Positions 29,337 through 32,562 of a stretch of DNA of 64,000 nt are shown in pieces; positions within the stretch are counted from its first letter, which is position 1, and each line of letters starts with the position of its first letter. Origin of the DNA: Mesorhizobium loti. Its GTDB lineage: Bacteria; Pseudomonadota; Alphaproteobacteria; Rhizobiales; Rhizobiaceae. Below the pieces are notes generated by a model. It ran no database searches and had not been told where the DNA came from. It was given only the letters and a program-made list of their open reading frames with translations. Position numbers and translations under genes: made by a program. The DNA lies in contig AP017605.1 in NCBI GenBank assembly GCA_002356515.1, positions 4,945,020 through 5,009,019 on the forward strand. The letters run 5' to 3'.

Positions 29337-29488
29337 CCTTCTCCCCTTGTGGGAGGTGGATCGGCGCGTAGCGCCGAGACGGTTGAGGGGTGTTCCAGCT
29401 TGGCGCCAGCCTACCCCTCACCCGGATTGCCAACCGATTTGTGAAGAACAAATCGGGGCAATCCGACCTCTCCCACAAGGGGAGAGGT
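29337..29488. repeat. Palindromic intergenic repeat, copy 3
   Basis: The outer arms CTTCTCCCCTTGTGGGAGG and CTCTCCCACAAGGGGAGAGG bracket two internal hairpins, one being GATTGCCAACCGATTTGTG with CAAATCGGGGCAATC. It belongs to the same family as copies at 3289 and 24819, with a different inner module. It lies between converging genes. Confidence 0.8.
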
Positions 29489-29505
29489 AAGACCGTTGCG
29501 CGCCG

Positions 29506-29820
29506 CTACTCGACGATGCGATAGATGTTCCACAAACTGCTGCCCGACACGACATAGGGCTCGATCTCCTTGCCCCATTTGGCATGGGCGTCGATCTTGC
29601 CGATCTTGGCAAACATCGCCTCCAGCTGGGCCAGGCTTTCGACCTGGTGGTGTGACTCGACCGTCGCTTCCCGCGCGCCGATCGATCCGGTCATGATCTG
29701 GAACTTCAGCTCGGCCAGGCCGACCTGCGAGCCGATCTCGCGTTCCCATTTTTTCAACAGGTCGAGCACGGTCTGCTTGTGCCCGAACTTGGCGTCGATC
29801 TGCCATCTGGCGCTGAACAT
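29506..29820 (-). CDS. Small conserved protein of unknown function
   Basis: This 104-residue soluble protein has an alternating helix-strand pattern suggestive of an alpha-beta-barrel (NIPSNAP/ABM-like) fold. It has a tryptophan-rich start (MFSARWQIDAKFGHKQTV) and the segment RIVE at the end. I do not recognise the exact family, and no catalytic motif is visible. It lies 46 bases downstream of the NTF2-like gene on the same strand, after a GGAGGAGAAGAAG ribosome-binding site, so the two and the AhpD-like gene could be one operon. Confidence 0.6.
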   Translation of the reverse strand: MFSARWQIDAKFGHKQTVLDLLKKWEREIGSQVGLAELKFQIMTGSIGAREATVESHHQVESLAQLEAMFAKIGKIDAHAKWGKEIEPYVVSGSSLWNIYRIVE

Positions 29821-29866: not shown

Positions 29867-30229
29867 CTACTCGTCCCAGGCCTGCACGACGGTCTGCCGT
29901 GCGATCTGCCCGTTCTTCAGTTCCAGCATCGCGGCGGCGAACACCTTGGTGCCATCCGGATAGGCGCAGGCCTGGGTGAAGGCCAGGCTGTTGCCGTCGG
30001 CGATCGTGGTGTCGACCTTGTGGGTCATCGCCCGGCTGCAAATGTCGTCCCAGAAGGTGGTGATCGCCGCGCGCCCGCGGATCTCGCGCGGCTTGCTCGG
30101 CGGGTTGTTGCGGTCGATCACGCGCACCAGCGCGTCATCGGTATAGAAGCTCGAAAGCGTCTTGCCGTCGCGGGTCTCGATCGCCTTCTTGATGGCCGCG
30201 CCATCCACGGTTTGGGTCTTGGTCAGCAT
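29867..30229 (-). CDS. SnoaL/NTF2-like protein
   Basis: This 120-residue protein starts MLTKTQTVDGAAIKKAIET. It matches the NTF2-like/SnoaL cone fold pattern (RDGKTLSSFYTDDALVRVID, then IRGRAAITTFWDDICSRAM). Such proteins are often small-molecule-binding or polyketide-cyclase-like, and many have no known reaction. The ATG at 30229 is preceded by GGAGGATG, so I prefer it to an in-frame extension to 30271. It is located between the AhpD-like and small unknown genes. Confidence 0.7.
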   Translation of the reverse strand: MLTKTQTVDGAAIKKAIETRDGKTLSSFYTDDALVRVIDRNNPPSKPREIRGRAAITTFWDDICSRAMTHKVDTTIADGNSLAFTQACAYPDGTKVFAAAMLELKNGQIARQTVVQAWDE

Positions 30230-30304
30230 TTCATCCTCCATGGCCCGTCTTCGGGCGGTTGATGTGCGCAAATCTGCCCGGCGCTTATCGACGGGCAGTG
30301 TCGT

Positions 30305-30784
30305 TCACTGCGACTTCGCCTTGACGGCCGCGAAAACGTCGTCGGTCTGCTTCTTGAAAGTCGCGAGATCGACCTGACTGCCGTTGAGCATCGTCGACCA
30401 ATGGCGCACGATCGCCGCCATCGCGATCGTCTCCTTGATCTCCTCCTCGCTGGCGCCGTTGAGCTTGGCCGCCTCGGTGTGGAAATAGATGCAGTACTGG
30501 CAGGGGATCTGCGCGGCGACCGCAAGGCCAATCAACTCCTTGGTCTTGCCGTCGAGCGCGGTCTTGGGGTTAAGCTGCACCCCCTTGATCTCGGCCCAGG
30601 CGCCGGCGACGGCGACGTCAGGCAGCGTCTTGAACATATCCGGCACCGAGCCGAGCGTCGCCTGGATGTCCTTGTAGGCGGCTGTCGCCGATGCATCCTC
30701 GGCCTTTGCGGGAGAGATCGTGAACAGCGCGCCAATGCCTGCCGCGATCACGAATGATCTGACATTCAGTTTTGACTTGAGCAT
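30305..30784 (-). CDS. Exported AhpD-like carboxymuconolactone decarboxylase-family protein
   Basis: This 159-residue protein has a signal peptide (residues 1-28, ending AKA) followed by an AhpD/CMD-type domain. The redox motif PCQYCIYFHTEA includes Cys95, Cys98 and His102. Cytoplasmic AhpD proteins have the same CxxC and act in peroxide or thiol chemistry. A periplasmic version is less common, which suggests an export-linked oxidative-stress role. The gene follows the hydrolase-cyclase-LuxR gene by 108 bases on the same strand, so it could be under the LuxR-type control of that fusion (inference). Confidence 0.8.
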   Translation of the reverse strand: MLKSKLNVRSFVIAAGIGALFTISPAKAEDASATAAYKDIQATLGSVPDMFKTLPDVAVAGAWAEIKGVQLNPKTALDGKTKELIGLAVAAQIPCQYCIYFHTEAAKLNGASEEEIKETIAMAAIVRHWSTMLNGSQVDLATFKKQTDDVFAAVKAKSQ

Positions 30785-30892
30785 TTCATCCTCCGTTCGC
30801 AGGGCCTTCCCGGCGGCATCCGCCTGGCCTGCATGGGGGAATTGATAGCCCCTACATCGGCGTGTCCGCTTCGCCCGAAAGCGCCATGGCTC

Positions 30893-32446
30893 TCATGGCC
30901 CGTCCGGGCCAGCGTGCCTGGCGGAAAATGCCGCCGCTGCCGCTCGCGATGGCAGGTCGAGCTTGAGCAGTATGTTGGCGACGTGACGCTTGACCGTGTG
31001 CTCGCTCAGCCTGAGTTCGGCGGCGATAGCGGCGTTGCTCTTGCCATCGGCGATCAGGTTCACCACCTCGCTTTCCCGTGCCGTCAACACGGCGGGTTCC
31101 GCCGGCTTGGACTTCGAACGGCAAGCCGGTTCCAGATGCTGCTCCGACGTCGCATGCACCACCGGCAATGGCTCGTCCAGTTCGCCGAGGCTGACGCGGC
31201 CGGCGTCGACGAAATGCAGGCCGGATCCCACCGCCAGATCGGCAACCAGCCGGGAAGCCAGAATGTCGCCACGCCCGGCATGGTTCGCCAACTGCATGGC
31301 CACGCGCGCCGTCAGTCCGACCGGTGGGCCGCGCGCTTCGATCTCGCCGACATGGACCCCTTGCGCACTCGCCACCCCGATCTGCTGCGCCGCCTCGCGC
31401 AACGCCGCCGCGCAACGTACGGCGCGCGCCGGCCCGTCGAAGCGCGAGATCATCAATTCGCCATGCATGCCCACCGCGCGCCCGCCATGGCGCCCGACCA
31501 GCAGCCGCCAGCTCTCCTGAAAACGCTGACTGCGCTCGAGCCACATGCGGTCGCCAAGCTTGGCCGTGTCGGAGATGCGCGTCACCAGCAACGCGGCAAG
31601 CACACGCTCCGTGTCCGCCACCGCCGGCTGGCCGGTAAGAAATTCCTCGATCAGATCGGCAACGCGGTCGACATCGCCGGTCCAGACCGGATGGTCGCGC
31701 CCGGCGATCTCGACCAGCCGTGCATTCGGGATCTTCTTCGCCAGGAAGCGGCTGGCCTCGGGATCGACACGAATGTCGTTGCGGCGATGGATCAGCAGTG
31801 TTGGCGCGCTGATCGCGCCGAGGATGTCTCGCACATCGATTCCGGCATTCATCCGCGCCAATGCCACCGCCGCGGTCGGGCTCGCCGACAGGCGCTCGAA
31901 GCGTGCCCACCAGGTTGAAAAGTGGGCGTCATCGACCCGGCCCGGAGCAAAATTCGGCAAGGTCGCACCGGTGCCCCAGGCCGTTTCGGCCGTCTCGATG
32001 AAGGCCGCCAGCCGCTCCGGCGGCATCACCCATTTGTGGAAATTCGCATAGCCGCCATAGAGCACCAGCCCCCGCGTCCGCTCCGGATAGGTGGCTGCGA
32101 ACAGCATCGCCATCGGCGCGCCCTCGGAAGCGCCGAGCAATGCGGCCCGGCCGCTGCCGGCCGCATCCATCACCGCGCGCACATCGTCCATGCGGGTTTC
32201 GAGGCTCGGCAGATGATGGGCATCGACACGGTCGGAAAGACCGGTGCCGCGCTTGTCGAACAGGATCAGCCGCGAGAATGCCGACAGCCGCCTCAAGAGC
32301 CTTGTATAGCCCTCGTCCTCCCAATGCAGGTCGAGATTGGAAATGAAGCCCGGGACGAAGACGAGATCAAGCGAACCCTGGCCGACCACCTGATAGGCGA
32401 TCCGCACCTCGCCACTGCGGGCATATCGGGTCTCGATCGGCCTCAC
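30893..32446 (-). CDS. Fusion of alpha/beta hydrolase, degenerate class III cyclase-like domain and LuxR HTH
   Basis: This 517-residue fusion starts with an alpha/beta hydrolase domain (about residues 1-270). The nucleophile elbow is GASEGAP with Ser107, plus candidate Asp224 and His252. Next is a class III nucleotidyl-cyclase-like domain (about 278-430, with FDGPARAVRCAAALR and VGLTARVAMQLANHAG). A LuxR-type HTH (about 452-505, LTARESEVVNLIADGKSNAA) ends it. The cyclase half lacks the metal-binding pattern: the first Asp of the usual FTDI motif is Arg290 and the GDG Asp is Glu330. It therefore probably binds a nucleotide or is structural. I infer that the protein senses a small molecule and acts as a transcription factor. 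The genes following at 30784 and below are candidate targets. Confidence 0.8.
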   Translation of the reverse strand: MRPIETRYARSGEVRIAYQVVGQGSLDLVFVPGFISNLDLHWEDEGYTRLLRRLSAFSRLILFDKRGTGLSDRVDAHHLPSLETRMDDVRAVMDAAGSGRAALLGASEGAPMAMLFAATYPERTRGLVLYGGYANFHKWVMPPERLAAFIETAETAWGTGATLPNFAPGRVDDAHFSTWWARFERLSASPTAAVALARMNAGIDVRDILGAISAPTLLIHRRNDIRVDPEASRFLAKKIPNARLVEIAGRDHPVWTGDVDRVADLIEEFLTGQPAVADTERVLAALLVTRISDTAKLGDRMWLERSQRFQESWRLLVGRHGGRAVGMHGELMISRFDGPARAVRCAAALREAAQQIGVASAQGVHVGEIEARGPPVGLTARVAMQLANHAGRGDILASRLVADLAVGSGLHFVDAGRVSLGELDEPLPVVHATSEQHLEPACRSKSKPAEPAVLTARESEVVNLIADGKSNAAIAAELRLSEHTVKRHVANILLKLDLPSRAAAAAFSARHAGPDGP

Positions 32447-32562
32447 GAGGTTTCTTCCGCCCGGCCTGACGATTTCTGATCGTCGACCATAGCAGAGCCG
32501 CGTCGATAGCGGCAGATCAAACTTTAGCGGAAAGGAATATAGGCCCGCGTGGCGGCTCGCGG

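Follow-up and report, generated by a model that had tools for sequence, protein, structure and literature searches.

What does a single chain control that joins an alpha/beta hydrolase, a cyclase-like domain and a LuxR-type DNA-binding domain? The question is raised by a gene of Mesorhizobium loti that lies in the window considered here, the whole stretch of 64,000 nucleotides (nt) that was analysed (contig AP017605.1, positions 4,945,020 to 5,009,019). We favour, with a probability of about 0.62 and from sequence comparison, the answer that its product (hereafter the regulator) is a one-component regulator of the neighbouring AhpD-NTF2-U104 operon, in which the hydrolase would be the ligand input, the dead cyclase a scaffold, and the helix-turn-helix (HTH) domain is predicted to bind sites at the end of the regulator's own gene (Table 1). 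Regulator, site and operon are connected here on the grounds of their co-occurrence and their position. According to this scheme, a hydrolase-cyclase enzyme would have gained a LuxR/NarL HTH and lost its cyclase chemistry; the intact hydrolase would admit a small molecule as ligand, possibly an ester or a lactone, which it either binds or cleaves; the dead cyclase domain would serve as dimer scaffold and relay; and an HTH dimer would bind two 7-2-7 inverted repeats where the regulator's gene ends, and would control, most likely as an activator, the promoter from which the adjoining downstream operon, AhpD-NTF2-U104, is expressed.

Table 1. Features of the regulator locus and related hydrolase fusions
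Feature	Position	Strand	Remarks
Regulator gene	30893..32446	-	517 aa, GTG start; from the list of open reading frames; hydrolase, cyclase-like domain and LuxR HTH
Alpha/beta hydrolase domain	31631..32434	-	aa 5-272; triad Ser107-Asp224-His252
Degenerate class III cyclase-like domain	31157..31612	-	aa 279-430; Arg290 and Glu330 at metal positions; homology, AlphaFold2
LuxR/NarL-type HTH	30929..31090	-	aa 453-506; GerE E 6.2e-17; NarL chains 1je8/1a04 matched
Site 1, perfect 7-2-7 inverted repeat	30896..30911	-	TGGCCCG-GA-CGGGCCA; overlaps the regulator's last codons
Site 2, less symmetric repeat	30871..30886	-	TGGCGCT-TT-CGGGCGA; 25 bp after site 1
-10-like TATCAA, putative promoter	30842..30847	-	conservation
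CMD/AhpD-core protein	30305..30784	-	signal-peptide-like N terminus (judged by eye); CQYC motif
SnoaL_2/NTF2-like protein	29867..30271	-	Pfam; ATG at ~30229 or 30241 more probable as start than the TTG of the list (by eye)
U104	29506..29820	-	104 aa; conserved in Mesorhizobium and Aminobacter
Trans_reg_C and BTAD joined to a hydrolase of the regulator's subfamily	L109:682-2340		window genome
BTAD joined to a hydrolase of the regulator's subfamily	L111:1486-3135		window genome
Hydrolase joined directly to a GerE HTH	L099:1462-2532		356 aa, without cyclase-like domain; another genome

Co-occurrence of the regulator, the tandem site and the operon

The stretch between the regulator and AhpD genes holds a block that barely varies and that resolves into two 7-2-7 repeats, laid out in tandem as TGGCCCG-NN-CGGGCCA, 9 nt and TGGCGCTTTCGGGCGA, the whole spanning the regulator's stop codon. 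Relatives were studied at 79 distinct loci of other genomes, which represent the best 80 of 88 relatives; among these the nearest named relatives of the gene belong to Mesorhizobium. Of 82 copies, 70 have a perfect 7-2-7 inverted repeat close to the stop, 8 keep six of the seven pairs and 4 keep five (these motif counts leave out L072, at a contig end, and the broken L077, and the conservation profile leaves out L056 and L062 as well); elsewhere in the regulator-bearing loci, perfect repeats of this form occur at 0.149 per kb. Site 2 was found by the search pattern in 71 of the 82 copies, and in 69 of these the offset between the sites is 25 bp.

We then scored the 34 positions of the site pair against the window genome's own sequence, which served as consensus (0 mismatches). 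All 78 near copies score 31-34 and 8 of the 9 distant copies from fused proteins, as we call those with the HTH, score 27-32; all 23 loci of LuxR-less relatives score 15-19, and the background maximum is 24 in 1613 windows. L187 and L192-L195, the sequences of which were fetched only after the site pattern had been seen, score 31-32, and L190 (G956) was examined for its neighbours and left out of this scoring. Across 199 family genomes (two draws by one request, their identity being taken from shared handles), the site pair is present within three mismatches in 9, once in each, against 0 for a reversed control, and these are exactly the 9 genomes that yielded the HTH-bearing gene; the five genomes with only LuxR-less relatives have no site pair within three mismatches. 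In the window genome of 8.45 Mb, the perfect site 1 occurs only once.

The genes downstream follow the regulator as well. Across the 79 loci (of which L072 ends within the regulator), the NTF2 gene is present in 78, U104 in 76 and AhpD in 70, so that the lack of co-conservation named beforehand as refuting the idea of a dead sensor was not found. On a plasmid of Shinella and a plasmid of Phyllobacterium the regulator is followed by AhpD and NTF2 and has other genes upstream, and L126 and L127 also carry AhpD and NTF2. NTF2 is the steadiest partner, since it is present in L192-L195, where AhpD was not seen, and AhpD is only a poor remnant in L187. None of AhpD, NTF2 and U104 was found beside LuxR-less relatives, within flanks of ~1.5 to 4 kb. 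The preliminary description of this locus had offered the three downstream genes as candidates for the regulon, a proposal that holds for their co-conservation, for the presence of AhpD and NTF2 behind plasmid copies and for the tandem site that precedes them and is seen only with the fused regulator; it holds less well for U104, found only in the Mesorhizobium/Aminobacter group (the flanks searched elsewhere being short), and for AhpD, missing in some copies.

Domain architecture of the regulator

In Pfam, the regulator matches Abhydrolase_1 at aa 28-252 (E 2.6e-15) and GerE/LuxR with 61.4 bits against a cutoff of 23.5, and shows no AAA/NB-ARC domain; no cyclase match appears in its middle region even at E 10. 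Pfam sees the cyclase in 3/3 intact relatives and in 0/5 further fused proteins. Using phmmer, however, aa 279-420 could be matched to 1ybt, the cyclase chain of Rv1900c (E 1.8e-11), and profile comparison of the middle domain with an intact relative gave a probability of 99.2. The NCBIfam model LipJ (NF058673) covers aa 5-420 (E 3e-80) with a score of 270.2, below the 800-bit cutoff of that family. An AlphaFold2 monomer model built from 40 sequences has a mean predicted local distance difference test score (pLDDT) of 83.8 and a predicted template modelling score of 0.55, by which each domain is fairly sure and their relative arrangement is not; over aa 281-430, 13 of 15 ten-residue blocks have a pLDDT of 83-94, the exceptions being 291-300 (69) and 371-380 (74). 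The modelled middle domain shows the strand and helix order of a ferredoxin-like fold and, together with the homology to 1ybt and the intact relative, this indicates a class III cyclase fold. The chain of three domains described beforehand, a hydrolase, a cyclase homologue with two replaced metal positions and a LuxR/NarL HTH, was thus recovered, and its layout is not a matter of chance because a relative is encoded at 79 distinct loci of other genomes.

The cyclase-like domain

Residues were counted in an alignment of 189 proteins, of which 166 are fused and 18 are LuxR-less with a cyclase-like domain; 55 fused proteins at 80% identity served as representatives. The fused rows were gathered by searches with the regulator, L127 or their relatives and stand among the best 120 of each protein search, so that farther fused groups could be missing from the matches listed. 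The partial P0090 was left out of the LuxR-less set, and L152, L084, L109 and L153, with too little cyclase domain, out of the cyclase-residue counts.

In the alignments with 1ybt and with an intact relative, which agree, Arg290 aligns with the TDI-motif Asp and Glu330 with the GDG-motif Asp, residues that we take to be the catalytic positions partly from general knowledge of class III cyclases. The two Asp residues that bind metal in an active cyclase are therefore absent from the regulator, and neither alignment places them at other positions. Position 290 is Arg in 160/166 fused proteins (52/55 representatives) and Asp in 0/166; both Asp residues are kept in 0/166 fused proteins and in 14/18 LuxR-less relatives. 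The replacement at position 330 is milder: Glu in 128/166, it is still Asp in 19/166. According to the part of PMC4886424 available, active class III cyclases use a transition-state Asn/Arg pair of which the Asn is not always required; the regulator has Arg381 and Gln385 instead, and Arg385 is kept in 45/166 fused proteins. The loss of cyclase chemistry, as first supposed, is borne out by position 290.

What does a dead cyclase domain do? Median ratios of nonsynonymous to synonymous substitution (dN/dS) over 71 genes (leaving out L032, L056, L062, L063, L065, L066, L067, L072 and L077) are 0.096 for the hydrolase, 0.159 for the cyclase-like domain and 0.073 for the HTH, the most constrained of the three; the cyclase-like domain is under purifying selection, and the mean identity of the representatives to the regulator is 0.47 in this domain and 0.74 and 0.78 in its neighbours. 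The preliminary description had proposed a nucleotide-sensing switch, in which the dead domain would still bind nucleotide and signal to the HTH, as is suggested for Mclx2/3 in wording found in the available part of PMC4452763. This is unlikely in our judgement, although purifying selection, the prevalence of Arg290 in fused proteins and the near invariance of His365, Gly367 and Glu368 would all suit it; the His365-Glu368 segment is common to intact relatives and may be structural. Among the 152 positions of the domain, 326, 330, 381 and 385 rank 121, 76, 90 and 79 in conservation, so that four of the five catalytic positions appear relaxed; moreover, none of the representatives (0/55) retains the ST of the DIxxST phosphate loop, which 14/18 LuxR-less relatives retain, and 11/55 representatives, the regulator among them, have a loop 4 residues shorter than that of most LuxR-less rows. 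With these four positions relaxed and the phosphate loop gone, but purifying selection acting on the domain as a whole, a scaffold fits better than a nucleotide sensor; the predicted role of the cyclase-like domain is thus a structural one.

In a rapid phylogeny built from just the hydrolase domain (56 fused, 14 intact LuxR-less and 4 degenerate LuxR-less rows, and the hydrolases L109 and L153, without cyclase domain), the fused rows form one clade with a Shimodaira-Hasegawa-like approximate likelihood ratio test support of 100. L196 has no HTH and a degenerate cyclase domain, yet carries the family's Arg at position 290.

The hydrolase domain as a proposed signal input

The preliminary description had noted an intact Ser107 elbow, and the full triad proved to be present: Ser107 sits in GASEG and is completed by Asp224 and His252, all three being invariant across the 40-sequence alignment that includes the regulator and kept almost throughout the fused proteins (Ser 161/166, Asp 166/166, His 165/166). 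The window genome also encodes hydrolases 47 and 43% identical to that of the regulator that are joined to Trans_reg_C and BTAD (L109) or to BTAD (L111), and the hydrolase of L099, at most 35% identical, is joined to a GerE HTH. That hydrolases of this kind are joined to three different DNA-binding layouts points to the hydrolase as the probable signal input of the regulator. A structure search with the regulator model returned, among the matches listed, hydrolases only, including RsbQ and D14; one domain can fill such a listing, and the absence of cyclase matches there says nothing on the cyclase fold. The match with RsbQ and D14 shows no receptor function, because plain esterases rank as high.

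The repeat pair as a proposed operator and its putative promoter

Is the repeat pair a DNA site at all? Coding constraint as the origin of site 1 was rejected in view of its near-frozen synonymous codons, codons 513, 514, 516 and 517 each using one synonymous codon at 0.97-1.0 (the mean over 152 codons is 0.77, and 19 of the 152 reach 0.95), and of L126 and L192-L195, in which the same site is placed after the stop, whereas in Mesorhizobium it overlaps the last codons. A mini open reading frame in the conserved block after the stop was likewise discarded, as distant copies keep the DNA pattern and not the frame (by eye). We find it improbable, and more so than the nucleotide sensor, that the pair acts as an RNA element, forming stem-loops that separate cistrons or terminating transcription in part, with the regulator acting elsewhere: the repeats do sit between two co-oriented genes and, by inspection, could form 5-bp stems with 6-nt loops, but folding of the 121 nt gives nothing beyond what shuffled sequences give (z -0.04), no Rfam match covers the pair and no terminator is called there, the constant 25-bp offset and the steady distance to a TA suit DNA, and the pair co-occurs with the HTH-bearing gene only.

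This TA lies 23 nt after site 2 in 71/78 near copies and 22 nt in 7/78, and at 22 nt in 7/9 distant copies. If this TA opens a -10 hexamer and +1 is assumed about 7 nt after it, the sites would be centred near -44 and -69. NarL, in the available part of PMC7419079, binds 7-2-7 repeats; it activates the ogt promoter through sites at -44.5 and -77.5 and, in a construct that carries just one site, through a site at -67.5. The resemblance to these positions favours activation, the start site being assumed, and repression at the operon promoter is possible.

Several observations weigh against the favoured reading. The site pair of L127 scores 22/34, within background; apart from the one perfect site, near-matches are not enriched genome-wide (102 against 96 in the control at two mismatches), and a regulon wider than the neighbouring operon is thus not supported. 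The promoter scanner called no sigma-70 promoter, the -10 resting on conservation, and a TA is also found 16 nt after site 2 in 37/78 near copies; palindromes can, besides, act as RNA. On the protein side, degenerate cyclases without HTH exist (L087, L131, L151, L168 and L200), and because of them active-site loss is not tied to HTH fusion alone. A structural role leaves the conservation of Arg290 (rank 14/152) unexplained, and given this residue the former pocket may still serve for a ligand or a salt bridge; Arg290 could pair with residue 330 in such a bridge, although some proteins have a non-acidic residue there.

The poorest of the alternatives, that the operon link is merely positional, the regulator acting through its hydrolase activity or on remote genes with a vestigial HTH, would account for a triad intact in nearly all members and is very improbable, given that the HTH is the most constrained domain and that site and operon accompany the regulator onto plasmids and into other genera.

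Other features of the locus

Upstream of the regulator, an inverted repeat with 6-bp arms and a gap of 5 (GACGATCAGAAATCGTC, 32468-32484) lies 21 bases before the start; its mean conservation is 0.83 over 76 sequences, and it may be a second control site. The formate dehydrogenase genes upstream, considered as a part of the system, are present in 77-78 of the 79 near loci but not beside the two plasmid copies and were set aside as chromosome context. Pfam confirmed the first two downstream genes as encoding a CMD/AhpD-core and a SnoaL_2/NTF2 protein; U104 has no Pfam or PDB match. In L077 the regulator's reading frame is interrupted by an early stop, and the downstream operon is present there. 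Between U104 and an aldehyde dehydrogenase gene, positions 29414-29490 hold an inverted-repeat element, perhaps an intergenic repeat, with a weak Rfam match to whalefall-1 (24.3 bits, below the cutoff of 37).

Comparison with known systems and significance

RsbQ, KAI2 and D14 are hydrolase receptors that act on partner proteins, whereas the regulator has a DNA-binding domain in the same chain, and its likeness to them consists of fold matches only. Rv1900c/LipJ (1ybt, NF058673) has the same order of a hydrolase followed by a class III cyclase domain; the regulator lies far under the cutoff of that family, has lost the metal-binding Asp residues and the phosphate loop and has a C-terminal HTH added. 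The BTAD-hydrolase (L109, L111) and hydrolase-LuxR (L099) regulators place a related hydrolase on a DNA-binding output, but without a cyclase-like domain. The Mclx proteins (cyclase-LuxR; Rv0386, Rv1358 and Rv2488c) include Mclx2/3, which also lack some canonical cyclase residues; in the available part of PMC4452763 they have an N-terminal cyclase, with AAA/NB-ARC in between according to some algorithms, and no hydrolase is named, whereas the hydrolase is N-terminal in the regulator. NarL/LuxR regulators likewise combine a GerE HTH with tandem 7-base inverted repeats 2 bp apart near -35 (PMC7419079, available part), and the regulator differs from them in having no receiver domain, the candidate half-site TGGCCCG and a hydrolase as its proposed input.

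Judged by titles and the starts of abstracts, none of the open-licence papers listed is about this architecture. In PMC2447327, the words Rv1900c, hydrolase and LuxR occur in the full text and the abstract reports cyclase domain fusions, so that this paper may describe related ones.

More speculatively, and with rather less than even confidence, the regulator can be seen as a second-messenger enzyme rebuilt as a direct switch. Its ancestor, which converted a ligand sensed by the hydrolase into a cyclic nucleotide, would have given up this chemistry while retaining the cyclase dimer as a hinge, and would have acquired an HTH and a tandem operator of its own; a ligand-cleaving hydrolase would now drive transcription from within the same chain, like a D14-type receptor fused with the output that it controls. 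Members of this class are easily missed: among the matches listed, relatives are mostly named plain hydrolase or esterase, some of them with regulator added, one as a LuxR regulator and one as an adenylate cyclase, and Pfam misses the middle domain in 6/6 fused proteins scanned. With regulator, candidate site and target operon within 3 kb, this locus makes it possible to test whether an enzyme has come to serve as scaffold in a transcription factor and, if the site binds the regulator, a reporter would make the discovery of its ligand practical.
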